Of a stretch of DNA of 64,000 nucleotides, positions 635 through 37,439 are shown piece after piece. The position numbers were made by a program, and so were the translations under genes. Positions within the stretch are counted from its first letter, which is position 1. The number at the start of each line of letters is the position of its first letter. The notes beneath the pieces were generated by a model. That model saw only the letters and a program-made list of their open reading frames with translations. It did not search any database and was not told the origin of the DNA. The DNA comes from Chamaelirium japonicum (Eukaryota; Streptophyta; Magnoliopsida; Liliales; Melanthiaceae): NCBI GenBank assembly GCA_947650365.1, contig OX393549.1:87379703-87443702 (forward strand), in the 5' to 3' direction.

Positions 635-3600
635 TTAGTCATTTTCTGTCTCATCTCTGTCACTCTCATCGCTTCCCTCTTCTATTATTTGATCTGCATT
701 CGCTGTCCAGTTTATATTGTCGACATCTTCATTTTCGTCGTGCACTGCGTCGACAATGATTATCTCATCATTCTGGTATGCATCTAAATCATCATCGACG
801 ACCCCCGCATCCTTGTCTTCCATGTCATAAAAATCTCTGGGTGGTGACCTAACTACAATTTGCCAACCTGAAGAGGTATTATCCGGTGCATAAAATATCT
901 GTTGCGCTTGAGAGGCAAGAATGAATGGATCTTCATATTGGGTATTCAATCTCTTGGCAGTGTTGATGCTGATAAAACCGTATTTGTCGACATTATAACC
1001 AGTCCCGCGATTATTAACATCATACCAATCGCATTTGAATAATACGATCCGATTTTGGCCAAGGAATTTAATCTCGAGAATCTCATTGAGGACGCCGTAG
1101 AAGTCGATATTTTCTAATTCTTCTTGCTCACCGTTGACGACAACCCCACTATTTTGGATTCTTCGTGATTTTTCACTATCTTTTGTCCGAAATCTATAAC
1201 CGTTCACGATATAACCATCGTACGATATTGCGTCTTGCAAAGGACTACAAGATAAGCGCCAAAGATCCTTATTCATCAGCGGATCGTGGTTGTCATGCAG
1301 CTCCTGTGCCTATAATAACCACACGACATTCATGATATGAACACATAATTATTGTTCGGTAATGGATGTCAATGAAATTCAGTAATGATGTGAATACTTA
1401 CGTGTTTCTCGAACCACGATGGGAATTCACGATCATGAATTTGGGGAGCATTTCGAGTACCTCGATTATTAATGATGGCTTTATGCTTCCTGTTTTACCG
1501 GTTATGAATTAGATTATAATTAGCACATATACTTAATGAATAGACTGAAAGAATGAGTAAATGATCGTAAAATGCTTACTCAATGAATGGCCACACTTCA
1601 TCACATTGGCGCAACACATACATATGTGCCTATTGAATCTCATCTATAGACAATCGACGGGTTTTGCCTCCTCCTACAGGTCTACCCATTTCGGCAAATA
1701 TAGACAGACCCCCATCGAAGTCTATTGGACCACCGTCATAGTTCCGCTCAAGTTGATTGAATCGCGTGTCTATACCATGTAGGTATCTTAAGCAGAATGT
1801 TAGACATTCTTCTGCTAGGTATCCTTCAGCAATTGATCCCTCCGGACGACTTTTATTACGAACATATGATTTCAATGTTCGCAAGTACCTAATTTGAGAA
1901 AAAAATATTTGGATGAATATATCAAGAACGATCAAATACATTGTGCGAATGAGACGAGACGATTACCTCTCGATAAAATACATCCACCGGTAATGAACTG
2001 GGCCGCCGAGTTTGGCCTCATTTGCCAAGTGAACGGTCAAATGCACCATGACATCAAAGAAGGAAGGTAGAAATATCATCTCTAACTTGCACAATGTGAG
2101 CGCAATATCCCTTTCCATCTGTTCAAGTTGGTCCACTCTAAGTACCTTCGAGCACAACTGTCTAAAAAAAGTACTGAGCTCAATTAACGGACCGGACACC
2201 TCTTCGGTTAAATTTCCACGTATAGCAAGAGATAACAATCGCTGCATAAGAACATGACAATCGTGGCTCTTTAATCCAGACAACTTCCGGCCGTTCTCTT
2301 GCACGCATCGTGCGATATTCGAAGAATAACCGTCTGGCGTTTTCACAGACCGTAGGAATGCACATAAGGCTGCCTTTTGCTGTGAGCTCATGGTGTAGCA
2401 TGCAACTGGCAACACATACTTATCCCCAATCTCTTGGGGATGAAGTGATTTTCGGATGCCCAACTCCTTAAGATCGAGACGAGATTTAAGATTATCCTTC
2501 GTCTTACCATCGAGATTCAGCAGTGTTCCTATAATGTTGTCACACATATTTTTCTCGATATGCATGACATCCAAGTTATGCCGCAAGAGTAGGCTGCTCC
2601 AGTACGGTAGTTTAAAGAAAATACTCTTCTTCTTCCAGTTATGCTCACGCGTAGAATCTTCATGCGTTATCTTCTTTTTACCTTTTCCAAGTGCCACGGC
2701 ATCAAGCTGATCCAATTCGCACAAGACTTCTACCCCCGAAAGCTGCTCCGGGGCCTTTGCAAGTTCCTTCTTGCCGTTGAAAGCTCTTTTGTTCTGCCTC
2801 CACTTATGGCCGTCAACAAGGAATCTTCGATGGCCCATATAACAGAACTTACCTTCGTTCTTCAACCGTAATGAATCTGTTTCCTTATTGCATGTAGGGC
2901 ACGCCAATTTTCCTTTAGTACTCCACCCGGATAAGTTGGCATATGCAGGAAAATCGTTGATGGTCCATAGAAGTGCCGCATGCATCCGAAAATTCTGGCG
3001 CAACGAGGCATCATACGTATCGGCCCCAACTTCCCATAACTCGTTCAACTCCTCAATCAACAGCTGCAAGTAAACGTCAATATCATTACCAGGCGACCTG
3101 GGTCCGGGAATGAGCAAGGAGAGCATTGTGTATGGCTTTTTTAAGCACATCCAGGGAGGCAAATTGTATGGAACTAGGACAACTGGCCAAATGCTGTACG
3201 ATACACTCATATTCCCAAAGGGATTGAAGCCATCGCTAGCAAGCCCTAACCTGACGTTGCGAACTTCATATGCGAATTCAGGATATGTATGATCAAAATC
3301 TTTCCACGTCAGAGAGTCGGCCGGATGTCTCATAATCCCGTCATCTGTACGTTCTCGTGCATGCCACCTCATGTGCTCAACAGTCTTCGATGACATAAAC
3401 AACCTCTGAAGCCTGTCCCTGAGCGGGAAGTATAGGAGAACCTTTGCAGATACATTTTTCTTCCTTCGACTGGTACTAGACTCGGCATCCGTCTCTTTAT
3501 ATCTCGTTGCTCCGCATATGTGGCATGACCGCGCATGTTCGTACTCTTTCCGGTACAAGATACGATCGTTCACGCATGCATCAATTTTCTCATAACCCAG

Positions 3601-4236
3601 ACCGAGATCTTTAATTGTCTTCTTCGTCTCGTAGAATGATTTCGGTACTGTCTCACCCATAGGAAAAGCCTCTTTCAGCAACTCTACCAACATATTAAAT
3701 GACTTATTACTCCAACCATTGAGGCACTTCAAATGAAGAAGCTTTACAGTGAAAGAGAGTTTTGAAAACTTCTCACACCCCGGGTATAGAGGTTGTTCGG
3801 CATCTTTAAGCAATCTGTAGAACTTGTCCGCTTCGATATTGGCCTGATCACCTGACGGTGTTTCCGTGCCTATTCCACCTTGCAAATCATGTATCATACC
3901 CTGCATGTCATCGTCATCGTCTGTATTAATATTATCATCAGCGATCACTGTGTTTGAAGTTTCACCGTGAGCTGCCATGGGGACTGCATCTAGCTCCTCA
4001 CCGTGCGAGAACCAACGGGTATAGGTAATGTCAATGCCACGCATTACCAGATCAACCTCACATTCCTCTCGAACCTTCCTAATCACCCTTCCGCAGTCTA
4101 TACAGGGACACACAATTTTTCCATCAAGCGGTGCAAGACGCTCAAATGCAAAATCCACAAATTTCCTGACTCCTTCTCTGTACTCTTGGCTCATGCGATT
4201 CGAATTACGCATCCAACTCTTATCTATCGAAGACAT
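635..4236 (-). CDS. CACTA transposase (TNP2 type), four exons, one in-frame stop
   Basis: This encodes the DNA-cutting transposase of the CACTA element. Read on the minus strand, I place exons at 4236-1967, 1888-1580, 1489-1402 and 1303-635. All junctions are GT-AG and phases agree (1,112 codons). The order is a transposase-associated N-terminal domain with CPCIDC, the TNP2 core (around LPPWMCLKKPYTML and ACPTCNKETDS), a DUF4218-like region that continues across the first intron (WMYFIER then YLRTLKSYVRNK), and a C-terminal DUF4216-like domain (FKCDWYDVNNRGTGY). Exon 2 contains a TAG near 1630-1632 shortly before its end; otherwise the frame is open. The start at 4236 is the first ATG of the open frame and fits the family's MxxxWM beginning. 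It could be a pseudogene or be rescued by alternative splicing. Family assignment is secure; activity is not. Confidence 0.85.
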
Positions 4237-4836
4237 CTTCGTCTATCTGGCTATACAACACCTGACATATAATTTCAAACAATGTTATAAGACTCCGCAC
4301 AATTTCAGTTTCGGTTCCCGAGTATGGAACACCGAACCAAAACTTCTACAGACCATCCACATCCCTAATGGATGGGTGTATTATGATGAGTAGACTAGTC
4401 ACATAGTAAACCTAGGGTTGGTGGCCAGCATTTGAACTGCTGATAGTTCGAATGCTAGGCATAGCACCAAAGTTATGCGATAGTAAGTCAACAAGTCAGG
4501 AAGCCTCATCAAGTAAACACTTGGGGTCTGACGGTTCTCTCTGTCACTCGAGTAGATTTATGGCTTTAGCATACCTCATATCACACCGAACCGACAAAAA
4601 CCGACCATTTCGGTTTCGGTTTCGGTTTCGGTTTTGATTTTTTGTAAACCGAAAAAAATATAACCGACAAAACCGACACCGAAACCGACCGACAAAACCG
4701 ACGCTCACCCTAGTCTAAAAACTACATTTTGCCCCCCATTCCCCCATTCAATTCAGTTTTGATAGGATATAAAAAATCAATGTTTTAATTAAAACACAAA
4801 AACTCGACTCGACTCGAAACCTTAATGAGTCGAGTA
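4237..4836. other. Leader region of the CACTA element
   Basis: No gene is seen. It holds an imperfect hairpin near 4433-4462 (agcatttgaac/gttcgaatgct) and, at about 4575-4715, a cluster of accgac/ggtttcggt repeats ending cgctcaccctag, which looks like one end of a small hAT-type element. The segment would be promoter or 5' leader of the transposase gene. Confidence 0.4.
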
Positions 4837-5642
4837 GACACGACAACTCGGCTAAAACCCGACAAAACTCGAGTCGAATCGAAACTCAGCCGAGTCGGAT
4901 CGAAACTCGAGTTTTGGACCGAGTCGAATCGAAACTCAGCCGAGTCGAGTCGACTCGGCCGAGTTTCGAGTGGACTCGGAGGGTGGATCAGCGAACGAAG
5001 AACACCGAATATCACATTCGAAGAACATACCATCACCCAATACATTAAATTCAACTCCAAACATAATCTATTCATGGTAGCAATAACATAATTATACAAA
5101 CTGACACGACAACTCGGCTAAAACTCGACAAAACTCGAGTCGAATCGAAACTCAATTAGCCGAGTCGGATCGAAACTCGAGTTTTGGACCGAGTCGAATC
5201 GAAACTCAGCCGAGTCGAGTCGACTCGGCCGAGTTTCGAGTGGACTCGGAGGGTGGATCAGCGAACGAAGAACACCGAATATCACATTCGAAGAACATAC
5301 CATCACCCAATACATTAAATTCAACTCCAAACATAATCTATTCATGGTAGCAATAACATAATTATACAAACTGACACGACAACTCGGCTAAAACCCGATA
5401 AAACTCGAGTCGAATCGAAACTCAATCAGCCGAGTCGGATCGAAACTCGAGTTTTGGACCGAGTCGAATCGAAACTCAGCCGAGTCGAGTCGACTCGGCC
5501 GAGTTTCGAGTGGACTCGGAGGGTGGATCAGCGAACGAAGAACACCGAATATCACATTCGAAGAACATACCATCACCCAATACATTAAATTCAACTCCAA
5601 ACATAATCTATTCATGGTACCAATAACATAATTATACAAACT
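4837..5642. repeat. About 270-bp tandem repeat, three copies
   Basis: The start motif gacacgacaactcgg recurs at 4837, 5103 and 5373 (spacings 266 and 270). Each unit has a 5' part dense in actcgagtcg-type palindromes and a unique-looking 3' part. The three copies are nearly identical, indicating recent amplification. They lie between the transposase start and the CACTA terminus. Confidence 0.9.
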
Positions 5643-5885
5643 GCAACGACTCCGATAGAATCCGGCTCACCAACATTAAAATAAAAAAAAAATTATAGAA
5701 AACCCTAAAGGGCAAAAACCATTGTCAAACAAGTAAACCCTACAATACATTTTAAGAGAGCATTTACCAATAAATATCGATCGGGTGAAAAGAAAATCCA
5801 TCCATATATGCAAAGTAGCAAACCCTACATTATATGTCTGATCATCATCTAAGCAAGCACTGCATATCCCATTACCAACCATTAT

Positions 5886-5918
<33 letters not shown>

Positions 5919-6204
5919 AATGGGTCGTCTCCCATACCTCGTCAGCGGCCAAGACCAGAAAGGAAGAGGCACCCAGAAGCTTTTTGATTTCTCCCTCGAC
6001 CCAGCAGGAACCCCTCCTCTTTCCCTCGATTCGAGTAATACCGGGGTGGGGGACGGATTTAGAGAGAGAGCGAGAGAGAGGGGCGGGGCAGGATCGAGTA
6101 ATACCGGGGTGGGGGACGGATTTAGAGAGAGCGAGAGAGAGGGGTGGGGCGCGCAGGAAAGATCAAAACAGATCGAACAGAGAAGGGGATCGCGCTGAGT
6201 TTAA
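5643..6204. repeat. GA-rich leader with 62-bp direct repeat
   Basis: A (GA)n tract lies at about 5886-5918. A segment starting gagtaataccggggtgggg occurs twice, about 62 bp apart (near 6032 and 6094), each followed by gagagag. No gene is seen; this is still inside the CACTA element. Confidence 0.7.
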
Positions 6205-7003
6205 ATAGGTTAGGGTTTTTACCAACGGAATGTTTAAGTCCGTCGGTATAAATAATATTTATCCCGACGGACACATAATAGCCGTCGGTACAAATAATCT
6301 TTATACCGACGAAAACATCATATCCGTCGGTAAACCTCTACGACGAAACTCAGGGTTCCATTTTTTCCAGAGGCTCGATTTTTACCCTGAGTTTCGTCGG
6401 GACAATTTTCCCGACGGAAATTTTATTACCGTCGGTATGGTACCGACGGTCATATAATTTCCGTCGGTATAATTATTTATACCGACGGATATATAACTTC
6501 CGTCGGTAAAAACCACCGACGAAACTCAGGGTTCCATTTTTTCCAGAGGCTCGGTTTTTACCCTGAGTTTCGTCGGGACAATTTTCCCGACGGACATTTT
6601 ATTACCGTCGGTATCGTACCGACGGCCATATAATTGCCGTCGGTATAAATATTTATACCGACGGACATATAACCTCCGTCGGTAAAAACCGCCGACGAAA
6701 CTCAGGGTTCCATTTTTTTTTCCAGAGGCTTGGTTTTTACCCTGAGTTTCGTCGTGACATTGTACCGACGGACTTTATGTAGCCGTCGGCATAAAGTATT
6801 TTACCGACGGTACATATATGTACTGTCGGGATAAATAATTTTACCGACGAATAATATTTGACCGTCGGTAATAAATATGCAAAAAAAATTTAAAAATTTG
6901 AAGTTATAATACCGACGAATATTATAGTCACCGTCGGTAAAAAGTGTATTATTACCGACGGTGATAATAATGTCCGTCGGTAAAGACCCTCTTTCTTGTA
7001 GTG
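6205..7003. repeat. CACTA subterminal repeats with nested palindromes
   Basis: Dozens of ccgtcggt/accgacgg motifs in both orientations fill this stretch, as expected for the transposase-binding subterminal region of CACTA elements. Superimposed is a roughly 170-bp repeat (near 6350, 6520 and 6693) whose core is an inverted repeat, gacgaaactcagggt facing accctgagtttcgtc. It ends at the 13-bp terminus at 6991-7003. Confidence 0.85.
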
Positions 7004-9971: not shown

Positions 9972-10237
9972 ATCTAGTCAGATTGTTCTAATCAGTTTTT
10001 TTGTTCCGTTTTGTTTAGTCAGTACAAAACCGACGTCCCTTGTTGGTTGGGCATGACTGGTGGTGGCTCCTTTCGCATGAACTAATATCTAAATAGAATC
10101 TTTGTCACAATTAATATAATCAAAAATAATTCTGAATAATTTCAAATTATTTGGGTTTTTTTTTTTTTGTGATTTAGAGGAGGGGGTCACAACGACTCCC
10201 AAGGAGGCGCCACATGCCGGAGCAGACATTGAAAATC
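9972..10237. other. Unassigned, with one copy of a dispersed segment
   Basis: At about 10001-10050 lies ttgttccgttttgtttagtcag followed by acaaaaccgacgtcccttg in similar form. The same segment recurs near 18610, 20712 and 23362. The remainder is AT-rich and shows nothing else. Its last nine bases, ttgaaaatc (10229-10237), are the target duplication of the next element. Confidence 0.5.
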
Positions 10238-10433
10238 GAGGTTTTTACCGAAATGGCCACCAACTCTCAACTATTGTTGAGAATGGACCCCGTCAAGAAA
10301 TCTGAACGAAAATGGCCACCGGCACGTGGGAAACAGGTCGCACGGTGACACTAACCAGGTAAAAAGACATATTGACCCTTACCACTGTAAAAACCTATCG
10401 TGGCTGGGTAACTTGGTTTCTTACCCACTGTAA

Positions 10434-11215
10434 ATGGACGAAAAATGGACGAAAAATGGACGAAAAAATGGACGAAAAATGGACGAAAAAATGGACGAAA
10501 AAATGGACGAAAAATGGACGAAAAATGGAACGAAATTGATAAAATTAACAGTACATTTTAGGACGAAAAATGGACGAAAAAAGGACAAAAAAAGGAACAA
10601 AAAATGGACGAAAAATGGACGAAAAAAGGAACGAAATTGATAAAATTGGCTATTCATCATTATGGTTAGGACGAAAAAAGAACGAAAAATGGACGAAAAA
10701 ATGGGCGAAAAATGGACGAAAAATGGACGAAAAAATGGGCGAAAAATGGACAAAAAAGGATGAAAAATGGAACGAAATTGATAAAATTAACAGCACATTT
10801 TAGGACGAAAAATGGACAAAAAATGGACGAAAAAATGACAAAAAAAGGAACGAAAAATGGACGAAAAATGGACGAAAAAAGGAACGAAATTGATAAAATT
10901 GGCTATTCATCATTATGGTTAGGACGAAAAAGGAACGAAAAATGGACGAAAAAATGGACGAAAAATGGACGAAAAAATGGACGAAAAATGGACGAAAAAA
11001 TGGACGAAAAATGGACGAAAAATGGACAAAAAATGGAACGAAATTGATAAAATTAACAGCACGTTTTAGGACGAAAAATGGACGAAAAAGGACAAAAAAA
11101 GGAACAAAAAATGGATAAAAAATGGACGAAAAAAGGAACGAAATTGATAAAATTGGCTATTCATCATTATGGTTAGGACGAAAAAGGAACGAAATCAACA
11201 AAAAGTGGTTGATAG
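10434..11215. repeat. Minisatellite of atggacgaaaa units, forward arm
   Basis: Roughly 11-12-bp units (atggacgaaaa, aaggacaaaaa and similar) are grouped into blocks separated by two kinds of spacer. One spacer is gaacgaaattgataaaattaacag plus acatttt; the other includes ggctattcatcattatggtt. The blocks form a higher-order pattern of about 120-240 bp. Lysine-rich open frames (WTKNGRK-type) arise from the repeat and are not evidence of a protein. Confidence 0.9.
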
Positions 11216-11261
11216 ATTAACAACACATTTTAGGACGAAAAATGGACGAAATTGATAAAAT

Positions 11262-11575
11262 CGGCGACGAAAACTAGATGAAATTTGTTATTTCGTCCGA
11301 TTTTCATCACACAGGCCATAGCCAGTCTCGGCCAGAACTGACTGTGATTTTTCGGCGACGAAAACTAGATGAAATTTGTTATTTCGTTCGATTTTCGTCA
11401 AACAGACCATAGCCAGTCTCTGCCAGAACTGACTGTGATTTTTCGGCGACGAAAACTAGACGAAATTTGTTATTTCGTTCGATTTTCGTCAAACAGACCA
11501 TAGCCAGTCTCTGCCAGAACTGATTGTGATTTTTCGGCAACGAAAACTAGAGACGAAATTTGTTATTTCGTCTGA
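11262..11575. repeat. 91-bp tandem repeat at the centre of the foldback
   Basis: The motif cggcgacgaaaactag recurs at 11262, 11353, 11444 and (slightly changed) 11535, exactly 91 bp apart. Each unit contains a short inverted pair (aatttgttatttcg region) and ends in ctgactgtgattttt. It forms the loop between the two minisatellite arms. Confidence 0.9.
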
Positions 11576-12070
11576 TTTTCGTTCATTTTTCGTCCATTTT
11601 TCGTTCCTTTTTTTGTCCTTTTTTTCGTCCTAAAATGTGCTGTTAATTTTATCAATTTCGTTCCATTTTTCGTCCTTTTTTCGTCCATTTTTCGTCCATT
11701 TTTCGTTCCTTTTTTCGTTCCTTTTTTTGTCCTTTTTTCGTCCATTTTTCGTCCATTTTTCGTTCCTTTTTTTGTCCTTTTTTCGTCCATTTTTTGTCCA
11801 TTTTTTGTCCTAAAATGTGCTGTTAATTTTATCAATTTCGTTCCATTTTTTGTCCATTTTTCGTCCTTTTTTTGTCCATTTTTTGTCCATTTTTTCGTCC
11901 ATTTTTCGTCCATTTTTTCGTCCATTTTTCGTCCATTTTTTCGTCCATTTTTCGTCCATTTTTCGTTCCATTTTTCGTCCTTTTTTTGTCCATTTTTCGT
12001 CCTAAAATGTGCTGTTAATTTTATCAATTTCGTTCCATTTTTCGTCCATTTTTTCGTCCATTTTTTCGAC
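11576..12070. repeat. Minisatellite, reversed arm
   Basis: The same unit as the forward arm, now read ttttcgtccat, with the same ctgttaattttatcaatttcg spacer in reverse complement. Three spacer-bounded blocks are visible. Together with the forward arm it makes an inverted repeat of several hundred base pairs. Confidence 0.9.
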
Positions 12071-12234
12071 CTAAAGTTGCAGTCGAAAGAGGTGGAGGAA
12101 GCTGCCGTCCAAATGAGGGTAGTTTGGTCCCAAAGAGTTTCAGTGGTCATTTTGGTAAAGCCAAAAGCAACCTGGCCCATTCTCAACAATAGTTGAGAGT
12201 TGGTGGCCATTTCGGTAAAAACCTCTTGAAAATC

Positions 12235-13490
12235 CGCACCCGGTGGGAACTACTATGATGGCCACCCGGCTGGAGCGAACACCAATCACCTTCCGGTCAG
12301 ATCAAAACACAGTCCGCCACCTGACGGTACAAAACACCCTGGCCCCTCCGGCGACAAACCCCTGCACGCCGTGGAAACCACCGCACACCGGCGGACTGTA
12401 GCCTACTGAGTGCTCCGTATGACTCCTGGACGACATCTTAGATTCTTGTGTTAGTTTTAAGTGGGAGGCAGGGGGGAAATTTTCAGCACAACCGTTGTAC
12501 AACCACGGGCCCACTGCCCAGGGGGAGGGCATGGGCGGCACTACCCCCATGTGCTGGGGACTGCTACCCATGTCTCTTGAATCACAGTGGGTCCCGTTGT
12601 ATGATAGGATGGATGTACTGAAAATTTCTGCAAATTAGGGTTAGGTCCTTAACTATTTTGCAATTTAGATGTAGGACACCATAGTTTGCTATATTAGCTG
12701 AGATCCCTACAAGCATACATTCGTCTTAAAAAATATATATATATTAGCCTTCAGGAAGAGTACATTTGTTTCAGAAAGAGTATACATTCTTATGGAGAGA
12801 CTTGAGCTATATTATAAAATTAACATGTCCTGCAGTTAAAAGTCATCTCTCAAAAAGGACTTATGTCAAACTTCCCCTGAAAATTTTCCCCACTGCTTTG
12901 TGTTGACGAGAGGCCTAGCTTGGGCCGGAATTTAGAAAGCCGAGGCCCAAGCCTATATAATTTTTGGGAAATTTTATTCACACCCTAAAATTGCTACATC
13001 TTTGCATCCTCCACTTTCCCGAGGGGGGGGATGTGACAATGACTCGGAGGGGGAGTAGGCGACAATGGCTCGGACGAGGAGGAAGGTTGGGGATGCCGTG
13101 GTGGCTCCGACGATAAGGAAGGTGGGATGTGAAGGGGAGGAAGGAGGGCGGAAGCAGGTCAGGGAGGAAAGTGGGGAATCAGGTGGTGATGAGGGATGGC
13201 AAACTTGTCATTAAGGGTCTTTTTTGCATAATCTCACTTTGTGTCATGTTCTTTTGTCCAACGTCACAAGTAAATAAATTTTTTAAATTCATTTTTTTTA
13301 TAGTTTGGTGGCATATTAGAGTTTAAGTAAAATTGGTCGATCATTTATTGCCCACCAAGGGTGAGAAGGCTGGGATGGCGCCCGGTGGCGAAGCAGAGAA
13401 ATTATTTTTTAAAAGATTCGGGTCCCATCACTGTATGGGTGCGAATAGAAGGAACCCCGCCCCCGAGCTCCCAGGGCCTCACACGACGAT
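12235..13490. other. Unassigned intergenic DNA with one small foldback
   Basis: An inverted pair, gaaattttcagcaca near 12476 and tgtactgaaaatttc near 12613, brackets about 150 bp and may be a small inverted-repeat element. The rest has no recognisable gene; the short open frames do not resemble known proteins. Confidence 0.4.
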
Positions 13491-13700
13491 ATGTTTTTTA
13501 TCAGCCACGAAGATATCACTGTAGCTGCTACAATGTGAGTACTTTTACTATAAAATTGAGTACTGTTGCCACAGTGATTTTACTATAGCAACGTGTTTTT
13601 TAGCAGCCACGATGGAATCACTATAGCTGTGACAGTGATTTTACTATAGTTGCTATAGTAAAATCACTGTAGTAGCTATATTGTTCACACACTAAGTCTT
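13490..13700. repeat. Palindromic repeat family, copy 1
   Basis: Motifs gctacagtgattttactatagcaac and their reverse complements alternate over about 200 bp, giving several overlapping hairpins. A related copy lies at 46385-46640. It is probably a non-autonomous foldback element. Confidence 0.6.
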
Positions 13701-13913
13701 GAAACTATACGTTTTGTAGGGATCGAGTGAAGTTATATATAGATAATGATAGTTTGATAAATTCGGTAACTTAACCATGGCTATTTTAGTCTTTTATTAA
13801 CCAAAAGAACCGTTGCAATTAATATGCTGAAATATGGACCTAGGCTTAGAGGAAAAGATTGTCGGAACCTATCCTAAAATGAAACCCTTAAAAAGGACTG
13901 TTTGCAATCCGCC

Positions 13914-13918
<5 letters not shown>

Positions 13919-13987
<69 letters not shown>
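13919..13987. repeat. (GA)n microsatellite
   Basis: About 34 uninterrupted GA dinucleotides. Confidence 0.98.
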
Positions 13988-13988
<1 letters not shown>

Positions 13989-14246
13989 CTAAAATAAATC
14001 AGGCCCCACTATAAATTTTGAACCCCTAGTCTATTTGATCTCTTGCTGCACTCTTTTTTATTTTATATTAGATTTTTATATACTAGTTATTATCACTTAA
14101 AAGGATGGATACAGACATCCACATTGTTGCGGCAAAACTTGCCTCTCTTTTGCAATTATAAATTAAAATGGAAAAAAATAAAATAGAAGTAGGATCAAAT
14201 ATAATTTAGTTGAAGCTAATGCTATGGCTAAAATTGAAATAATTAT

Positions 14247-14614
14247 TACGAAGAACCCAGACCCATGGATACCCGGCTCCTCACAAAATCGGCTTGTAAG
14301 GAAAGGTCCAAGACGGGTATATAAATCGCCCATCACCCGCTCCCATTACCGATGTGGGACTAACCTATGTGAGGCATAACCATCTCAACACCCACTCTCA
14401 CATGGGACACTCGTGGCAAGCGCACTATCAGGAGGATCGGAGCTTCCGGAGCGGGTTTGGCTCTGCTAACATGTGAAGAAGCCAGACCCTTAGATACCCA
14501 CCTCCTCACAAAACCGACTTATAATGGGAGGTCAAGGCGGGTATATAAACGACCGATCACCAGCTTCCATTATCGATGTGGGACTAACCAGTGTGAGGCA
14601 TGACCATCTCAACA
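14247..14614 (-). mobile_element. TRIM-type LTR element, second copy of the family
   Basis: Two direct repeats of about 144 and 143 bp (14247-14390 and 14472-14614) flank 81 bp. On the minus strand each runs tgttgagatgg to ttcaca or a worn form of it, followed by a tRNA-Met-type primer site and preceded by a purine tract. It matches the younger copy at 55885-56244. Non-coding. LTR divergence is clearly higher than in that copy, and I see no clean target duplication. It is a structurally recognisable old fossil. Confidence 0.85.
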
Positions 14615-16190
14615 AATACAAGTAGGGAATCTAATCCATTTGTCAACATATATTACATACATGTATTGCCAATTCTGTCACCGTAGATTACATCACAAAA
14701 TAGCTACGCGCTTGAAACGGTAGACGACTATATGCCATAAATCCAATAAAATGAAAATACTTTATGTATAGCAATCTCAATAAATTATTTGCAGTCTGAA
14801 ATTTTATGAGTCTCTCTGGACCAATCATTTTAGTTTCTTAGGGTTGAAGGAACCAATTTATTTTAATTACATTTTTTTTTTTATATTTGTTAATATGGCA
14901 TGCGATATCGTCAACAGGCGAGCCGAACATGTATGCAGGTTGGGAAGAGGCCTCGCGCTTATTTCGGCTCATCAGCTTGTTGCTCCTCGTTCGATGAAAA
15001 GAACCCCGCTCAAAAGACTAAGATGCCAATTCTGAACAAATGCTTGCAGTGATTGGGTCAGTGTCGAAACCGGTGCGCTAATGATCTCGTGATTAGAATT
15101 TCATTAAGTGACTCAACTTCTAACCTGGTGCCACGATTAGTATGATCGAGAGGTGCCGATCAACTGTTTCGGTCGCTGTAACGATCTTCTCATCTGATGG
15201 AGTGCATCGAGTATGACCTGCCTGTAAAATATTCTTCGCAAATGGGGAAGATGATTTGATTATTCTTGGATGTTATCATTAAATTATACTTAGAAAAATT
15301 GACAATGGTGGTCTTGATGGCTCGAAGAATCCAATTGACGTCTGTTCTTTCATTTTCATCCCTTATGTTTCAGTATGAACGACCTGAAGCTGCTCTCTAG
15401 GAGATGAGAGGTCTATCTTCTGTGTGTTTTTTGTAGATTGGCTAGCTACAGAGATAAAAACCGTTATTTCCGGTCCCAAGCCCGGATGATCGAGAAAGGT
15501 TGAGGGTTGATGTTAGGTTGAAAGCCGGTCGTAAAAAGCCAACTCAAACTATGAAATGGATCTTAATTCGATAAACATTAATGTTACGTCTTCGCCCGGA
15601 CGTAGCACGGAGAAGCTAGGAGCTAGTGGGTTGATGGTTAAAAGGAAGGGTATTTATGTGGGTGATCGGGGTTCAAGTCTTATCTTCGGTAGTTTTTTCT
15701 TTCTTGTGGCGAGAAGGGATTCATAAAGCCGACCTCAAGTAGATAGGACATGGCTTGATAGTTATGGTTATGGCTTGCTAGAGAGAGAATATAAGAAGAA
15801 TCAGATAAGCATTACAAAAACAAATGTCTTTGTCTCTCTAAATTTTGGAATCATTGGTTTCATATGGATTGCGATAACGATCGAAGTCCAAAATCTAGGC
15901 TCCAATCAAGGACTTGCATGCCATACATACGATAAAACGGCCGTTACATGTACCAATTGTAATTTCAGTCCTATAATCATACTTAACCTGCCGTACGTAC
16001 CATAACTTCAATCAATACTAAATTTTTTTCGCACTTGCAGCCAATAATCGAGGTCCCCGTCTCTTTCGTAGATTGCAGCCACATCTTGTTTGATCGAATG
16101 ATTAGATACCCTTTTGGGGCCAGTTTCAAGGAAGTGATTAGGATAAATCTTGCATATTATTTTGTTTTCGGAGTCGATGGTTTTGCAGAG
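14615..16190. other. Unassigned intergenic DNA
   Basis: Nothing recognisable is seen. Open frames up to 81 codons occur (for example 16035-16280) but lack family features. Confidence 0.4.
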
Positions 16191-16500
16191 AGAACGATTT
16201 TGTTCACCGTCCTGATATGTGGTGAAGCATTACCTTCCGATACGAACCACCGAATGCATATGATGATACGAGACTGGTGACGTATGGATGTCACCGATGG
16301 TGTATGATGTTTATCCAATGATGCGCATCCGATGGTTCACATTGGAAGGTAATGCTTCACCACCTATCAGGACAGGGAACAAAATCACTCTCTTCCGTCA
16401 GCCCGATTGATGTGGCAGAGTGCAACTAGTGGTGTAAAAGACTTAAATGTCGCTAGTGGGTTTCAGCAACCAGTTGCACGCTGCCATGTCAATCGGGCCC
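16190..16500. repeat. Pair of foldback repeats
   Basis: Two inverted pairs lie end to end. The first is gattttgttc...gtggtgaagcattacc (16193-16240) against ggtaatgcttcaccacc...gaacaaaatc (16345-16387). The second is cccgattgatgtggcag plus agtgcaact (16402-16428) against agttgcac plus gccatgtcaatcggg (16471-16498). Both look like non-autonomous inverted-repeat elements. Confidence 0.7.
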
Positions 16501-16521
16501 CCCCCCCCCCCCCCCCCCCCC

Positions 16522-16555
<34 letters not shown>

Positions 16556-16556
16556 T
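16499..16556. repeat. Compound microsatellite (C)n(TC)n(AC)n
   Basis: About 22 C residues are followed by (TC)n and then (AC)n. It abuts the foldback on its left. Confidence 0.97.
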
Positions 16557-18119
16557 ATGGATGGATATGCTATAGTTACATTAGAGCCATTCAGAATTTG
16601 AAATATCTCATCAAAGAGCATAGTCCTTTTTTTTTTTTCTTTAATGCAATTAAGAGCACAAAATTGCATTAAAGAAAAATAATACATTCTCAAAAAAAGA
16701 ATACTTACAGTTTGTAGAAAGGGAAAATTTTCTAAGTACCAAATGTATTAGTCGTTACTAATACATATGCATTACTAGTTACTAATGTATAGAGAGATAA
16801 AATATAATGTATAGATAAAGGAAATATGTTACTCCGAACTTTCATTTAACTGCTCTCAACTATTGTATTAGCCGTTACTAATATATGCATTTAAAAAAAA
16901 ATCGGCAGGTGTCCCAAAGCCTTTCGGGCAACGTCCCATTTCAGGCTTGGACTAATCCCTCCGCAAGTGAAGCCCGATCCACTCGGGAAATCCCATTTCA
17001 ATCCTGCGTAAATCAAGGGAAAGGAGGGAGAAAGAATAAAGGGGGACTTAGTAAGAGGTCCATGACCAAGAGATCATTTTAACGGGAAGGACATCAACAA
17101 GATGGTGTTGCATCAGGTCCCTCCAAACCTGGTGCAACCCCCCCGCTGCCCTTCCCTGCCGCCACTGCCGGACCTAATCGAACCCCCCGCCCCCCCCCCC
17201 CGCCGCCGCCGTCGGCGGCGGATCTAACCGAACCCCCTCCCCCTGGCCGGCCGGACCTAATCTACAGGCCATGGGATGAACCCTAGACCTAGGGAGTTCA
17301 ACTGAACCACCTCGCCGCCGCCGCCGGAGCTGCTCCGGGGGTTGTCGAGGTCGGGGGGGGGTCAAGGTCGGGGTCGTCTAGGTCCGAGTCGAGGTCACCC
17401 TCATCGGTGTCGAGGTCGGGGCCGCCGGAGCTGTGGGAAAAAAAGGTCGAGGTCGAGATCGGGTTTACCGCAGGGATCTTAGGCAAAATGAAAGTGATGG
17501 GAGGTCTTGTAGGCGGAATAGATCTGTTTCTAGGGACTTTAGGCACATTAACCAAGAATAAATCTCTTAGCGCACCACTTACGTCATGTATTTCGTGTGG
17601 GCTCTACAAAGGCCTGATAGTTGACACTTTATACTTTATCTCTCGATGAGGCACCCGCTACATGCTATGGTGGTATGTGAGCCCATCTGGCCACCCAAGT
17701 GTAAGAATTTTCAATAGGTCGGCCTATATAGATCATTCATCAGGCGTTGTAGACCGTCGGATTAAGATTGAGCAGTGTCACTCTGGCCAAATAAGATTTG
17801 ATTGTGTCATGTGCATAACCAGGCCTGAGCACATCTCATAGTGCACTTGGGATCGTGTTGGTGTATATATTTAAGTTTAGGTCAGACCTAAGTATATAGA
17901 AGCGATTTATGGGACTCAGTAGGTCTCCTAGTCACGATGGCTGACTAGAGATCAGGGTTTACCTATAAGTATGATTGTAGTTCCCTCTCGACCCAAACGA
18001 CGTCCCACGTACTCCACTTATGCATCCCATCATGTGGGAGATTCGACATGGATCTTATACGGCTTGGAGCAAAAGGCAACAGTTGTAGGCCTCTCCACAT
18101 TAAGGATCTCTCTTGTTCA
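16557..18119. other. Unassigned intergenic DNA
   Basis: A GC-rich, CG-containing stretch at 17130-17430 gives proline- and arginine-rich open frames on the minus strand with no known family signature. The region 17700-17990 resembles LTR-type sequence in composition but has no identifiable ends. No gene is supported. Confidence 0.35.
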
Positions 18120-18350
18120 TTATTAGTGCATGCTAGTGCCTGTTGGCACTGCAGCGGGCCGTCTTCGGTGACAACACACCTGTCGGCACTGCAATGGGCC
18201 GCCTTCGGCGTCAACATATTTGAACGTCTTCGGTAACAAAACACTTTTGATGACAACGCTGACATTCATAGGGACACCCATTTCCTCGCCCGTGCCGATT
18301 GGCACGAAGTGGGCACCTTCGATGCGACCAACTCTCCCTCCCCCTATAAT
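18120..18350. repeat. Composite repeat segment, copy A
   Basis: It contains gcctgttggcactgcagcggg, a run of ttcgg(t/c) motifs and gtgccgattggcac, then a pyrimidine tract. The same order is found at 18604-18925 and 20698-20925. Confidence 0.75.
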
Positions 18351-18603
18351 CGATCAATCACAGTTGTCTCTGTTCGAACGGATTCCTTGAGATCGACCCA
18401 ATGGTTTGGGGTGGCTGAAATTTTAGTATGCGGGTTGATAGCCGTTGATGCGAACAACGATTACGGGATGAACAGTCAGGTTTAGTGCAATTTCAATGGG
18501 CCAGTATTTTAGGGGTTTAGTGCAATTTAAATGGGTTGAGATTTGAAACCAATGAGAGATCGTGCGTTGATTTTTGAACGAATGATTAAATCTATTCGAT
18601 TCA

Positions 18604-18925
18604 TTTTTGTCCAGTCAACTTTTTTGTTCCATTTTGTCTAGTCAGCACAAAACCGACATCCCTTGTTATATAAACTAGTGCATGCCTGTGCCTGTCGGCA
18701 CTACAGCGGGCAGCCTTCGGCAACAACACAACTGTCAGCAATGCAGCGGACAGCCTTTGGCGGCAAGACACCCCCCGGGCATCACCACCCCCACCCCCAC
18801 CGTTGTATGCGACGACAACACACCTGACCGCATTCGGCATGCCCATGCCGATTGGCATGATGCGGGAGCCTTCGGTACGACCAACCAACCCCACCTCCCC
18901 TACCCTCGGGGGGAGAAAGGGAGAG
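18604..18925. repeat. Composite repeat segment, copy B
   Basis: It begins gttccattttgtctagtcag plus acaaaaccgacatccc, followed by the gtcggcactacagcggg block and the gccgattggcatga block. A GA-rich tract follows. It marks the left end of the larger duplicated unit described in the findings. Confidence 0.8.
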
Positions 18926-19056
18926 AGAGAGACCACGGGGAAAAGAGAGAGAGTGGGTAAGAGAGTAGGGCTGTCTCGATAGAAACTGAGGCCTAAGGCG
19001 AAAATTCTAAATGGGGCCTTTTTATATTTATTTTTTCATAATGGGTCGGACCTAAG

Positions 19057-19068
<12 letters not shown>

Positions 19069-19131
<63 letters not shown>
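19069..19131. repeat. (GA)n microsatellite truncating a hAT copy
   Basis: About 31 GA dinucleotides occupy the place where the 5' end of the next hAT-type element should be. Confidence 0.95.
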
Positions 19132-19135
<4 letters not shown>

Positions 19136-19503
19136 CGTTTAACTAATCGTGTCGTGTCTAGACCCTAAACCCGTACCCGACCCGCTTATAAATAGGCAGA
19201 CTCGATAAGACCCGTTTACTACACGGGTCTATTCAGTTGACCCGATCCGACCCAATCCGACACAACCTAACCTGACCCGATAAGACCCGTTGGTACTATA
19301 TACTATAGTATCGGATTGCGGGTAGACCCAACCCGACACGACCCATTGAATTTTAAATGGGCCTTCCCGGGTCTACTGTGTCCAGACCCTAAACTCGGAC
19401 CCGGCCTGTTTATTAAACTGTCTACCGTGATGACCCGAACCCGTTTAACCCAGACCTGCTAACTTCGTGTCAGGTCGTGACGGGTCCAGAATTGCCAGCC
19501 CTA
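19132..19503. mobile_element. hAT-type non-autonomous element, 5' end lost
   Basis: The right end ttgccagcccta is present, followed by gccttagg, the same flank as the copy ending at 22468. The interior is the gggtcgggtc/acccgaccc-rich sequence of the family. The left end is replaced by a GA tract. Confidence 0.75.
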
Positions 19504-19545
19504 GCCTTAGGCGGCTGCCTACAACTGCCTCACTATTAGGCCAGG

Positions 19546-20690
19546 CTTGGAAGAGAGAGAGAGAGAGTGAGATCGTGTGGAAGAGAGAGATTGTAGGGAA
19601 GAGAGAGAGGGAGAGTTAGAGAGAGGGTGCGAGAGACAGATGAGAGAGAGAAGGGCAGCGAGAGCGAGAGACGGGGAGAGAGATCGAAGAGAGAGATACA
19701 GAGAGAGAGAAAGAGATTGTGGGGAAGAGAGATCGGATAGTGAGAAAGAAATCGCGGATAGATAAAGAGAGAAAATCAGGGGGGGTGAGAGAGAGATCGA
19801 GAGAGAGAGAACTGGGAAGAAGGAGAGAGAGAGATTGGGGGGAGAGAGAGATACAGGGGGGAGAGAGAAATAGATCGTGGAGAGAGAAAGATACTGAGAG
19901 AGAGAGTGAAAAAGAGATCGTGGAGAGAGAGAAAGAGAGAGAGAGAGAAAATCGAGGAGAGAGAAAGAGAGAGGGAGAGCCGGGGGGAGAGAGAGACCGA
20001 GAGAGAACGGGAGAGTGAAAAAATCGAGGAGAGAGAAAGAAGAGAGAGAGAGAGGGCCGGGGGAGAGAAAAAGACCGAGAGAGAACAAAGAGAGCGAGGG
20101 AGGGAGAGAGAGAACCAGGGAGAGAGAGGAGAGAGAGAGCTGGGGAGAGAGAGAAAGATACGGAGAGAAAGAAATACGGGGAGAGGGAGAGATCCCGGAA
20201 GAGAGAGAGAGTGCAGGGGGGGAGTGAGAGACCAAGAGAATGGAAAGAGTGAGAGAGGGAGAGAGAGAGAATCGAGGAGAGATAGGAGAGAGAGAGAGCC
20301 GGGGAGAGAGAGATACGGAAAGAGAGAGAGAGAGAGAAATACTGGGAGAGAAAAATCTGGGGAAGAAGAGAGGGAACGACTGGAGAGCGAGAGAGATAGC
20401 CGGGGGGGAGAGAGATACGAAGAGAGAGAAATACAAGAAAAGAGAGAGAGAGAGATCCAGGAAGAGAGAGAGAGAGAGCCAGGGGGAGAGAGAGAGACTA
20501 AGAGAGAATGGAGAGAGCGAGAGAGGGAGAGAGAACGGGGGGGGGGGGGAGAGAGCCGGGGAGAGAGAGATACGGAGAGAGAGAGAGAGAGAAATACGGG
20601 GAGAGAGAGAGATCCGGAAAGAGAGAGAGAGAGAGAGAGGGAAAAATAGGGGGAAGAAGAGAGGGAACGACTGTGATCACGAGAGAATTT
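19546..20690. repeat. 1.1-kb polypurine tract, tract 1
   Basis: The plus strand is almost entirely A and G (gagagaga, gggga, gaaaga mixtures), with rare c or t. Long open frames on both strands (RERERER or SLSLSPS types, up to 305 codons) come from this composition and have no domain features. It ends at gaacgactgtgatcacgagag. Confidence 0.95.
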
Positions 20691-22015: not shown

Positions 22016-22468
22016 TTGGGGTGGCAATGGGTCGGTCAAGTTCGTGTCGTGTCTAGTTTTGGGTCATGTCCAAAACCCCTAGACCCGGGCCCGACCCGTT
22101 TTACTAATCGTGTCTAGACCCTAAACCCGTACTCGACACACTTATAAACGGGTAGGCCCGATAAGACCCATTTACCACAAGGGTCTATTCAGTTGACCCG
22201 ATCCGACCCAATCGACTCGACCCAACCTAACTCGATAAGACCCGCTGATACTACATACTATAGTATCGGATTGCGGGTAGACCCGACCAAACCCAACACG
22301 ACCCGTTGAATTTTAAACGGGTCTTCCTAGGTCTACCATGTCCAAACCCTAAACTTTGACCCGACCCATTTAGTAAACGGGTCTACCGTGTCGAACCGAA
22401 CCCATTTAACCCAGACCCGCTAACTTCGTGTCGGGTCTGCCGTGTTGGGTTAATAATTGCCAGCCCTA
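22016..22468. mobile_element. hAT-type non-autonomous element (453 bp)
   Basis: Ends are ttggggtggcaa and ttgccagcccta. Flanks gccttagg (22008-22015) and gccttaag (22469-22476) match at 7 of 8 bases, the 8-bp duplication typical of hAT. No coding capacity. Confidence 0.85.
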
Positions 22469-22514
22469 GCCTTAAGCGACTGCCTTTAGCTGCCTCACTA
22501 TTTGGCTGGGCCTG

Positions 22515-23325
22515 GAAGAGAGACAGAGAGAGATCATGTGGAAGAGAGATATAAAGAGGGATTGTAGGGAAGAGAGAGAGAGGGAGAGTTAGAGAGAGAT
22601 GAGAGAAAATTGGGGAGAGAGAGATCGGAGAGAGAGATTGTGGGGAAGAGAGAAAGAGATCAGAGAGCGAGAAAGAGATCGTGGAGAGATAGATAGAGAG
22701 AGAGAAAACTGAGAGAGAGAGAGAGAGAGAAAACCGGGAGGGGGAGAGAGAGAAAACCGGGAAGAGAGAGAGTCGGGTGGAGAGAGAGAGATCGAGAGAG
22801 AACGGGAGAGAGAGAGAGAATCGGGGAGAAAGAGAGGGAGAGAGACAAAGAGAGATATCTACGAGAGAGAGAGAGAGATACGGGTAGAGAAAGAGAGATA
22901 TGGGGGAGAGAGAGAAAACTGGGGAGGGAGAGAGATTGGGGCAAGAGAGAGAGGGAGAGCCGGGGAGAGAGAGAGAGACCGAGAGAGAACAGGAGAGAGA
23001 GAGAGAGAGAGAGAGAGAGAACCGGGGAGAGAGCTGGGGGGAGAGAGAGAGACTGAGAGAGAACGGGAGAAAGAGAGAGAACCGGGGAGAGAGAGAGAAA
23101 TACGGGGGGAGAGAGAAAGATCCGGGAAGAGAGAGAGAGAGACGGAGAGAGAGAGAGAAAATAGGGGAGAGAGCCGGGGGGAGAGAGAGAGACTGAGAGA
23201 GAACGAGAGAAAGAGAGAGAACCGGGGTGAGAGAGAGAAATACGGGGGGAGAGAGAAAGATCCGGGAAGAGAGAGAGAGACGGAGAGAGAGAGATCGGGG
23301 GAAGAGAGAGAGAGAGGGAACACTG
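22515..23325. repeat. 0.8-kb polypurine tract, tract 2
   Basis: Same composition as tract 1 and same position relative to a hAT copy and a following gtctagtcag segment (23362-23395). Internal direct repeats of roughly 60-130 bp (gggggagagagaga plus ctgagagagaacg) are visible at 22965-23230. No gene. Confidence 0.95.
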
Positions 23326-32368: not shown

Positions 32369-33410
32369 TTTTTTGGGTAAGGCAAAGGTGGTCATTACAT
32401 TATGACCTGCATGTCCTCCAGAAAGAGGGCAGATAGGCCGACGGGAAGATCAGATACCCAATACCCTTCCATGCCATAAACCCGTGCCGCCGTTGCCAGC
32501 CAGTGCGCTGCACGTACGGCTTTTCGTCCTCGGTAACCACCACACCGTCACCCCGTGTAATTGTTGCCATGCCTGTTGACAAGCTATTATGAGGGGGTAG
32601 GGCTCCCCACTGCATCCCCTCCCCAACACTAGAGCATCCCGAGCCTTGGAGGCATTCGTCAATACCACAACATTATTACATCCCCGACTTACCAGGTCGT
32701 CAAAGGCCTCCTTTATGGCCCACAACTTTGCCTGAAGGGCAGATTGCACCTGACACCGAAAGGGAGCTCCGCGCATATATGGCCTCCCTTCGTAGCCAAA
32801 ACCCAAGCTCCACTAGAAAAAAACTCCGGGGATAGGAAGGAACGATACATCCAAACGACGTATTCCAAGTTCGGATCCCATTGCACACCCATCCTGCTCC
32901 CCACTAAGCACTTGACAAACTGCAAATAGAGATCAAGCCCCTTGTGGACCAACTCCCTTATAAAAGTATCTTTGTGATCGAATAGCTTTGTGCATCAAGC
33001 TTTCCACAACTGCCACATTGCGACAACTATAATTTCCCCAGGCACCGGGACCTCTCTTTTCCTCTCCTCCGTGGATCCCAAACGCAACGAGTCGAGATAG
33101 TAAAAATCCAACCCAGTCCACTGTCGAACCCCGAGCCAAAACTCCATAGCAAATGGGCATTGCCAAAAGATATGCTCAATATCTTCCTCTAGCTCCCCAA
33201 ACCACGGACAACTCCCAAAATCGAGGCTTAATCTGTGTCGCAACAAGGACGCTGTTGGTAAGGCACCATGAAATAATTTCAATAGAAATAAATGAGCTCT
33301 TGGTGGGATTCTCAACTGCCATATCGCTATCCCTCCCCAACTCAGTAGATTGGCCTCCCCACCCGATAAGTCTGCACGAAGCACCTTGAGCAACCGAGCA
33401 TAGCCATTCT
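32369..33410 (-). mobile_element. LINE 3' end (zinc-binding RT domain and RNase H)
   Basis: Read on the minus strand from 33410, the first part matches the zf-RVT domain that follows plant LINE reverse transcriptases (IAIWQLRIPPRAHLFLLKL, then CPWFGELEEDIEHIFWQCPF). Next come linker sequence and an RNase H-like region (about 32960-32450: SALQAKLWAIKEAFDDL and CQQAWQQL). It ends in a short A tract at 32369-32376 (T on the plus strand). The reading frame is broken between the two domains, with a stop after WQLWKA and at least one frame change. The 5' side is cut exactly where the satellite array starts. The reverse transcriptase core is absent. Confidence 0.85.
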
Positions 33411-36400
33411 AATTCATTCATATGAATATAGCCATTCTAATTCATTCGAACGAAGGTAGTTATTCTAATTCATTCGTACAAGCCATTCTAATTCATTCGT
33501 ATGGATATAGCCTTTCTAATTCATTCGTACGAGCCATTCTAATTCATTCGTAAGAATGTACCTATTCTAATTCATTTGTACAAAGGTAGCTATTCTAATT
33601 TATTCGCAAGATCCATTGTAATTCATTATTACGAATGTAGGCATACTTATTCATCGTATGAACGAATGTAGCTATTCTAATTCATTCGTACGAATGTAGC
33701 CATTCAAATTCATTCGTACGAAGGTAGCCATTCTAATTCATTCATCCGAGCAATTCTAATTTATTCATACGAATATAGCCATTCTAATACATTCATACGA
33801 ATGAATGTTTCCATTCTAATTCATTCGTACGAATGTAGCCATTCTAATTCATTCGTATAAAGGTAGCTATTCTAATTCATTCGTACAAACCATTATAATT
33901 CATTCGTAGGAATGTAGCCATTCTAACTCATTCGTATGAATGGATATAGCTATTCTATTTCATACGTACGAATATAGCCATTCTAATTCATCCATACGAA
34001 GGTAGCCATTCTAATTCATTCGTACGAATATAGCCATCCTAATTCATTCGTACGAATGAATGTAGCCATTCCAATTCATTCGTACGAATGTACCCATTCT
34101 AATTCATTCATACAAAAGTAGTCATTCTAATTCGTTCATAAGAGCTATTATAATTCATTCATACGAATATAGTCATTCTAATTCATTCGTACAAACGAAC
34201 GTAACCATTCTAATTCATTCGTTCGAATGTAGCCATTCTAATTCATTCGTACGAAGGTAGCCATTCAAATTCATTTGCATGAAGATAGATATTCTAATAC
34301 ATTCGTATGAGCCATTCTAATTCATTCATACAAATGTAGTCATTCCAATTCATTCATACGAATGAATATAGCCATTCTAATTCATTCGTTTGAATATAGC
34401 CATTCTAATTTATTCTTACGAAGATAGTCATTCGAATTCATTTGTATGAGCCATTCTAATTCATTTGTACGGATCTGACATTTCTAATTCATTCATAAGA
34501 TCCATTATAATTCATTTATAAGATCCATTCTAATTCATTCATATGAATGTAGCCATTCTTATTCATTCGTATAAACGAATATAGCCATTCTAATTCATTT
34601 GTACGAATGTAGCTATTCTAACTCATTTGTATGAAGGTAACCATTCTGATTTATTCGTACGTGCTATTAATATTCTAATTCATTTGTATGAATATATCCA
34701 TTTTAATTTATTTATACGAATGAATATTTCCATTAAAATTCATTCGTACGATTGTAGCCATTCTAATTCATTTATATAAAGGTAGCCATTCAAATTCATT
34801 CGTACGAACCATTCTAATTCATTCGTAGGAATGTAGCTATTCTAATTCATTCGTACGAATTAATGTAGATTCTATTTCATTCATACGAATGTAGCCATTC
34901 TAATTTATTTGTACGAAGGTAGCCATTCTAATTCGTTCGTATAAGTCATTCTAATTCATTCGTATTAATGTAGCTATTCTAATTTATTCGTACGAATGAA
35001 TGTAGCCATTCCAATTCATTAATACGAATGTAGCCATTCTAATTTATTCGTACGAAGGTAGCCATTCTAATTCGTTCGTAAGAGCTATTTTAATTCATTC
35101 GTACGAATATAGCTATTTTAATTAATTCGTACGAAGGTAGCCATTATACTTCATTCGTACAAGCTATTTTAATTCATTCGTATGAATCTAGACATTCTAA
35201 TTCATTCATACGAACGAATATAGCCATTCTAATTCATTATTATGAATGTAGCCATTCTAATTCATTTGTACAAAGGTAGGCATTCTAATTTATTCATATA
35301 AGCCATTCTAATTCATTCATATGAATGTGGCCATTCTAATTCATTCGTACGAATGAATATAGCTATTCAAATTCATTCGTACGAATGTAGCCATTCTAAC
35401 TTATTCATATGAATGTAGCCACTATAATTCATTCATACGAATGAATGTAGCTATTCTAATTCATTCGTGCGAATATAACCATTCTAATTCATTCTTACAA
35501 AGGTAACCATTCTATTTCATTCATACGTGTCATTCTAATTCATTCGTAAGAATGTAGCCATTCTAATTAATTTATACAGGCCATTCTAATTCATTCGTAT
35601 GAATGTAGCCATTCTAATTCATTCATACGAACTAAAATAGCTATTCTAATTCATTCGTACGAATGTAACAATTCTAATTCATTCATACGAGTCATTCTAA
35701 TTTATTCGTACGAATGTAGCCATTCAAATTCATTCGTATGAATGCAGCCATTCTATTTCATTCGTATAAATATAGCCATTCTAATTCATTCGTACGAAGG
35801 TAGCTATTTTAATTCATTCGTACAAGGCATTCTAATTCATTCGTACGAATGTAGCTATCCTAATTTATTCGTACTAATGAATGTAGCCATTCCAATTCAT
35901 TCGTATGAATATAGCCATTCTAATTCATTTGCACGAAGCTAGTCATTCTAATTCATTCGTAAGAGTTATTCTAATTCATTCGTACGAATATAGTCATTCT
36001 AATTTGTTTGTAATAGTTATTCTAATTCATTCGTACGAATGTAGCTATTCTAATTCGTTTGTACAAACGAATGTAGTCATTCTAATTCATTCGTACGAAG
36101 GTAGCCATTCTAATTCATTCATGCAAGCCATTTTAATTCATTTGTATGAATCTAGGTATTATAATTTATTCGTATAAACGAATATAGCTATTCTAATTCA
36201 TTCGTACGAATATAGCCATTCTAATTCATTTGTATAAAGGTAGGCATTGTAATTTATTCATGTGAGCCATTCTAATTTATTCGTACGAATGTGGCCATTC
36301 TAATTCAATCGTACGAATAAATATAGTTATTCTAATTCATTCTTACGAATATAACCATTCTAATTAATTTGTACGAAGGTAGCCTTTCTAATTCATTCAT

Positions 36401-36704: not shown

Positions 36705-36709
36705 AATGT

Positions 36710-37434: not shown

Positions 37435-37439
37435 AATGT

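Follow-up and report, generated by a model that had tools for sequence, protein, structure and literature searches.

A foldback Mutator-like element of Chamaelirium japonicum whose minisatellite arms resemble the transposase leader of larger elements with the same ends

Introduction

The FARE elements of Arabidopsis, which Windsor and Waddell described in 2000, reportedly comprise FARE1s of about 1 kb with modular inverted repeats and FARE2s that are large and coding, and are said to have 9-bp target duplications. FARE1, a foldback element with long palindromic repeats at both ends, is now classed as a Mutator-like element (MULE) (PMC4486113), and FARE has been characterised as a foldback with a MULE-domain transposase (PMC3169594). 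Here we describe an element at positions 10238-12225 of a 64,000-nucleotide stretch of the Chamaelirium japonicum genome (the window, by which we mean the whole stretch analysed; C1:87379703-87443702 of the 1.52-Gb assembly of 3253 contigs). The element, copy L001 in our numbering, is about 2 kb long and carries no enzyme gene. It is a non-autonomous foldback MULE, as are Arabidopsis FARE and nematode Tm1, and is thus of a kind already known. We found that it very probably derives from a family of 11.5-kb MULEs in the same genome. Its likeness to FARE is one of description alone, both being foldback MULEs; unlike FARE, it has arms made of an 11-bp minisatellite that has expanded and that we trace to the leader of a transposase gene.

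Two described systems have similar arms. Tm1 of root-knot nematodes has 9-bp duplications and arms made of variable numbers of a 13-15-bp unit, and occurs as MITE-like (miniature inverted-repeat transposable element) and transposase-encoding members in one genome (PMC3169594). It shares with the window family the 9-bp duplications, the composite inverted arms of tandem units and the coexistence of small and coding members. In contrast, Tm1 has a Phantom-type animal transposase and asymmetric terminal motifs, and Ulp1 goes unmentioned in the part of the account used here (PMC3169594). Tetris of Drosophila virilis is a foldback element assigned to Mutator, with internal tandem repeats of variable number and 8-10-bp duplications, and its repeats seeded satellite-like arrays (PMC4079207). 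The window element is likewise a Mutator-type foldback with tandem repeats of variable number and duplications in this range; however, the Tetris unit is 220 bp long and no autonomous partner was found for it there (PMC4079207).

That plant transposons can carry minisatellites was known before, since Inukai in 2004 dealt with the part that transposable elements play in the spread of minisatellites in rice (cited in PMC4079207 and PMC6947457). MULEs with multiple terminal inverted repeats (TIRs) have also been described, and represent a different kind of repeated end (PMC3310237). In the literature searched, which left out most subscription journals, no paper combined Mutator-like, terminal inverted repeat, minisatellite and foldback. 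The family described here offers an unusually complete portrait, with large MULEs that have open transposase frames, small copies that lack arrays, and foldback copies with a minisatellite traceable to 2-3 seed units that precede the transposase gene. It illustrates how a variable number tandem repeat may be generated, amplified and spread by the transposon that bears it, and it suggests a connection, open to testing, between the foldback form and silencing of the transposon by itself; in other respects this is ordinary plant transposon biology.

Results and Discussion

The ends of the window element are 49-bp TIRs, GAGGTTTTTACC...GAGAATGG, identical letter for letter on the left (10238-10286, plus strand) and right (12177-12225, minus strand). 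They are flanked by two matching 9-bp copies of TTGAAAATC at 10229-10237 and 12226-12234, and these features stand as they were given in a preliminary description made from the window sequence. The same description had the interior consisting almost wholly of ATGGACGAAAA units. Such units are present in both arms, and the arrays take up over half of the element, but there are also spacers, a loop of 91-bp repeats, and about 145 bp (left) and 108 bp (right) of non-array subterminal sequence inside the TIRs.

The forward arm (about 10432-11251, plus strand), delimited by Tandem Repeats Finder (TRF), BLAST and 40-bp tiles, consists of ATGGACGAAAA-type 11-bp units, 32 of them at no more than one mismatch, with the recurring spacers ATTGATAAAATTGGCTATTCATCATTATGG and TTAACAGCACATTTTAG. 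It is followed by a loop of 3.5 copies of a 91-bp unit (11261-11582, plus strand; TRF) and by the inverted arm (about 11576-12068, minus strand), in which TRF and BLAST identify reverse-complement units, 23 at no more than one mismatch, and which pairs with the forward arm when folded as DNA. Long inverted arms built from tandem repeats, as in foldback elements, are therefore present. Folded with DNA energies, the window element reached -658 kcal/mol, and the right arm took up 58% of the left arm in pairing; three shuffles of the right arm gave -247 to -276 kcal/mol and 36-40% pairing, and flipping that arm gave -171 kcal/mol and 0.4% pairing.

The preliminary description expected related copies elsewhere in the genome, and these were found in large number. 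With up to 3 mismatches allowed, the TIR has 394 forward and 406 reverse matches genome-wide, far more than chance would give, compared with 0 + 0 for the same pattern read backwards as a control. Among 100 perfect TIR matches listed (C1 and part of C2), 58 make up 29 inward-facing pairs less than 30 kb apart: 8 pairs at 1.5-2.1 kb, 11 at 11.4-12.4 kb and 10 of other sizes. A first set of 31 two-ended copies (24 of 1.2-2.3 kb and 7 of ~11.5 kb) was taken from search rankings and the listed pairs and is not a random sample. We found a perfect 9-bp duplication in 25 of the 31 and a perfect 10-bp duplication in L013 and L068, while deliberately wrong pairings (n=930) gave no perfect match and 3 with one mismatch. 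A second set, the complete copies reached through the array search, had perfect 9-bp duplications in 6/6. Over both sets, perfect 9- or 10-bp duplications flank 33/37 complete copies, or 32/36 when counted by insertion, as L023 and L030 represent a single insertion that occurs twice in the assembly. These lengths lie within the 9-11 bp of MULE target-site duplications.

The copies also bear on whether the locus is mobile at all. A tandem repeat in a region duplicated once could resemble a transposon without ever having moved, and L007 and L061+L062, which lack matching duplications, are the only copies that fit such an account. We regard it as scarcely credible; the TIR matches are dispersed in their hundreds, the 9-10-bp duplications are specific to each site, and elements with the same ends encode a transposase. 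The perfect duplications at 33/37 complete copies refute it.

Near one complete copy of 1645 bp (L077, C9:43089000-43092900) a third TIR lies 326 bp further on, and is the start of a neighbouring second copy.

The ends of the window element are common to 7/7 copies of ~11.5 kb (L049, L051, L053, L055, L057, L059 and L061), and a Pfam search found the MULE domain (PF10551) in all seven, with E-values of 2e-22 to 2e-8. MULEs sharing these ends, for which the preliminary description advised a search, are therefore present. L057 has an open exon of 700 amino acids with matches to MULE (2e-21), Transposase_mut (8.4e-11), DBD_Tnp_Mut (1e-7) and SWIM (2e-4), and PF03108 and PF04434 were detected in both L057 and L059. 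Elements that share the ends of the window copy thus carry a MULE/MuDR-type transposase. The exon is open over 700 amino acids in three of the seven large copies (L049, L057 and L059). In L057 an upstream exon starts with an ATG at 1407, and from the splice-site letters a GT...AG intron at 2063-2152 would join it in frame. In an alignment to 6xg8, a Mutator-family transposase of solved structure, residues D, D and E of the domain coincide, although the E-value of 0.006 is weak; we take these to be the catalytic residues.

The large elements also carry an Ulp1-type gene. Peptidase_C48 lies on the strand opposite the transposase in 4/4 copies scanned (L053, L055, L057 and L059), and DUF1985 is found on that strand in L057 (2.2e-14) and L053 (3.3e-15) and falls below the curated cut-off in L051/L052. 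MULEs that bear ULP genes are known from Arabidopsis, melon, rice and grapevine, with the Ulp1 gene in either orientation (PMC2528002). The reverse orientation seen in the four copies is also that of the KI-MULE (Kaonashi) group of Arabidopsis; however, that group is described as non-TIR MULEs (PMC2528002), and we set aside membership because the window family has perfect 49-bp TIRs. In L053+L054 the DUF1985 frame has 91-bp arrays immediately upstream of it, and such arrays recur in the middle of the element, so that both genes of this copy have repeat-rich upstream regions.

Perfect ends had been read in the preliminary description as a sign of recent movement. Our data do not support that step. 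Complete copies, which were picked by similarity and so are to some extent selected for this, deviate from the 49-bp TIR by 0-1 mismatch, while identity between copies in the adjacent 187-bp ends goes down to 82%. Because the TIR is conserved while adjacent sequence diverges, perfect ends alone do not prove recent movement. Better evidence comes from two 11.65-kb copies, L057/58 (C2:25.17 Mb) and L059/60 (C2:58.66 Mb), which are 99.95% identical over 11653 columns and yet lie at separate sites with different duplications. This argues for recent movement in the family. The remaining pairs among the six large copies free of N are 96.2-98.9% identical.

We then mapped the window element onto L057 and L053 by BLAST and 40-bp tiles. 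By BLAST and tiles, L057/L058 and L053/L054 have ends that are 97% identical to the left end of the window element (L001 1-187, window 10238-10424), and the left subterminal segment (10287-10424, plus strand) resembles the end on the side of the Ulp1 gene. The right subterminal segment (12075-12176, minus strand) resembles the transposase-side end, at 97-100% to L053/L054 by tiles and, in the case of L057, at 83% over its outermost 110 bp. Between them, the loop is 95% identical by BLAST to L057/L058 element positions 10331-10741.

The arms map to sequence that precedes the start codon of the transposase gene, 10436-11251 apparently in expanded form and 11577-12075 in inverted form. In L057 this leader contains a seed of two blocks, each with 2-3 units of GGACGAAAGAT/GGACGAAAAAT, at element positions 467-567 and 776-865; the transposase ATG lies downstream at element position 1107. 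The spacers in the seed region are the same as those in the arrays of the window element. Three 40-bp tiles on the forward-arm spacer GATAAAATTGGCTATTCATCATTATGG match L057 at 93, 97 and 100%. This spacer was not found in the reverse arm of the window copy, for which the BLAST matches on the minus strand of the L057 leader are 53-62 bp long, are 85-93% identical and include the spacer TTAACAGCACATTTTAG or the GATAAAATT junction.

These results bear on how the element came by its repeats. The minisatellite had been regarded in the preliminary description as cargo, and a pre-existing genomic tandem array could have been captured between Mutator ends, as happens in Pack-MULEs. The arrays are over half of the element and MULEs do capture sequence (PMC2528002). 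Moreover, three small copies that lack the array hold an interior of unmatched origin. Against this, L057 contains, upstream of its transposase ATG, a seed that has these same spacers. No captured host gene fragment of the Pack-MULE kind was found in the window element: its ends, array spacers and 91-bp loop all match the 11.5-kb elements. We also searched the genome with a 44-bp array pattern, which gave 215 + 164 matches compared with 0 + 0 for a control. Among 100 array matches listed of the 379, which fall into 41 loci, a family end lies within 4.5 kb in 41/41, and ten of these loci examined for ends all had TIR(s) at 0-1 mismatch. No array outside the family was thus seen among the 41 loci, in contrast to Tetris, whose repeats seeded arrays. 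Together these observations make foreign cargo very unlikely. The other part of the earlier proposal, that a minisatellite is being spread by a non-autonomous element of the Mutator type, agrees with the many copies, their 9-10-bp duplications, their variable unit number and the MULE-encoding partners.

Several observations weigh against derivation from the 11.5-kb family and have to be set beside the evidence for it. Stops or shifts cut the transposase frame in L051, L053, L055 and L061, and the exact Ulp1 marker peptide is present in 5/7 large copies and absent from L049, which holds 5000 N, and from L051. Among the first set, L007 and L061+L062 have no matching duplication and L004 and L017 have one with a single mismatch. 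Tiles made of 11-bp units alone match the large elements at about 60-85%, as expected if the units expanded after the split; because of this poor match, it is through spacers and junctions that the array is tied to the leader. For comparison, 0/193 control tiles from window 12301-20000 reached 80%, although this control is unmatched in composition. The polarity, from large element to small, is one that we infer.

A further point on the same side comes from the small copies without arrays. L064, L065 and L067 (3/24 small copies of the first set) have no 11-bp array and contain 4-5 diverged 91-bp cores, with ~690-950 bp of interior that has no match in L057 or L053. The small copies are therefore not all of one kind. 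Captured sequence is a possible source of these unmatched interiors. CT-rich and GC-rich stretches are seen in the interiors of L065 and L067.

We consider that the small element arose by deletion and inverted duplication from the 11.5-kb MULE family, as follows. Interrupted gap repair or template switching may have duplicated the leader in inverted orientation, so that the two minisatellite arms would both be copies of the leader upstream of the transposase gene, inverted relative to each other around a 91-bp repeat. The 91-bp repeats of the loop would derive from the arrays of the 11.5-kb elements, which they match. Through gains and losses of whole units, by slippage, unequal exchange or gap repair, the motif of 2-3 units would then have grown to 5-119 units per orientation. 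The transposase of the 11.5-kb elements would bind the shared TIRs in trans, move the small element and leave 9-bp duplications.

Variation among copies is consistent with such growth. Repeat number had been predicted to differ between copies, and in 27 complete minisatellite copies of 1226-4079 bp we counted 5-119 units per orientation at no more than one mismatch. Arms run strictly forward and then reverse in 24 of the 27, and L070, L075 and L076 are mixed. The largest copy seen, L069, is 4079 bp long, and TRF counts about 166 units in one of its arms and 124 in the other. The doubly assembled insertion, L023 on contig C765 and L030 at C2:104888794-104890229, differs between its two assembled versions, over 3152 aligned bases, by 3 substitutions, by a 1-bp gap in a poly-C run and by a single gap of 11 bp, which corresponds to exactly one unit. 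The two are either two haplotypes or a recent duplication and, because C765 duplicates the C2 locus almost identically, some unplaced contigs may be alternative haplotypes. The unit counts of the two arms are weakly correlated (Spearman 0.38, p = 0.07). Homogenisation between arms was considered on the basis of k-mer similarity in 24 copies, 0.250 to the copy's own other arm vs 0.231 to other copies (permutation p = 0.0026), but this difference is confounded by lineage and we make no claim of homogenisation.

A possible role in silencing

Mu killer of maize is a single silencing locus. Sequence of the transposase gene, along with TIR sequence, is present in it as an inverted duplication, and the locus has been proposed to yield small RNAs (PMC3440606). 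The window family has the same combination of parts; in contrast to Mu killer, it is dispersed, it has the upstream leader as its inverted part, and a silencing role is here a candidate reading only. By analogy, foldback arms derived from the leader might act on their parent instead of being neutral by-products, with a transcript hairpin giving rise to small RNAs directed against the transposase leader. In the interior of the window element, 72 distinct 21-mers and 53 distinct 24-mers have exact matches in the upstream leaders of the seven 11.5-kb elements, compared with 0 for a 2-kb window control, and among 30 small copies tested at least one leader 21-mer is present in all 30 and at least one 24-mer in 29. 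The strong hairpin fold of the window copy is in keeping with this. However, shared k-mers also follow from common descent, the two near-identical 11.65-kb copies suggest that the parent moved recently, and the three array-free copies share only 1-11 21-mers and have multiplied too. We therefore consider an effect of this sort on the parent unlikely. The same doubt extends to the wider picture of the family as a mobile, multi-copy analogue of Mu killer, at once a parasite of its parent's transposase and a hairpin source of silencing small RNAs, having inverted and amplified the leader between functional TIRs. If it were true, the dose of silencing would be set by how many units the arms contain.

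Neighbouring features of the window

Besides the foldback MULE, the window contains a PPR-DYW gene. On the minus strand at 635-4242 there are frames of the tnp2 type (Transposase_21, 1.7e-100) with DUF4216 and DUF4218, presumably of a CACTA-type element. Close to these frames, 4837-6877 holds arrays of 270-bp units and inverted repeats containing CCGTCGG, which may be the subterminal region of the tnp2-type element. Two long, degenerate GA-rich arrays occupy 19552-20663 and 22571-23316, and the segments 19152-20329 and 22108-23294 are 77% alike in direct orientation. A 6.2-kb array at 33401-39564 is built from a 28-bp unit, TAGCCATTCTAATTCATTCGTACGAATG, which contains the palindrome ATTCGTACGAAT, and has higher-order periods of 111 and 139; close to it, at 41108-41884, lies a retroviral-type polymerase SH3-like domain.
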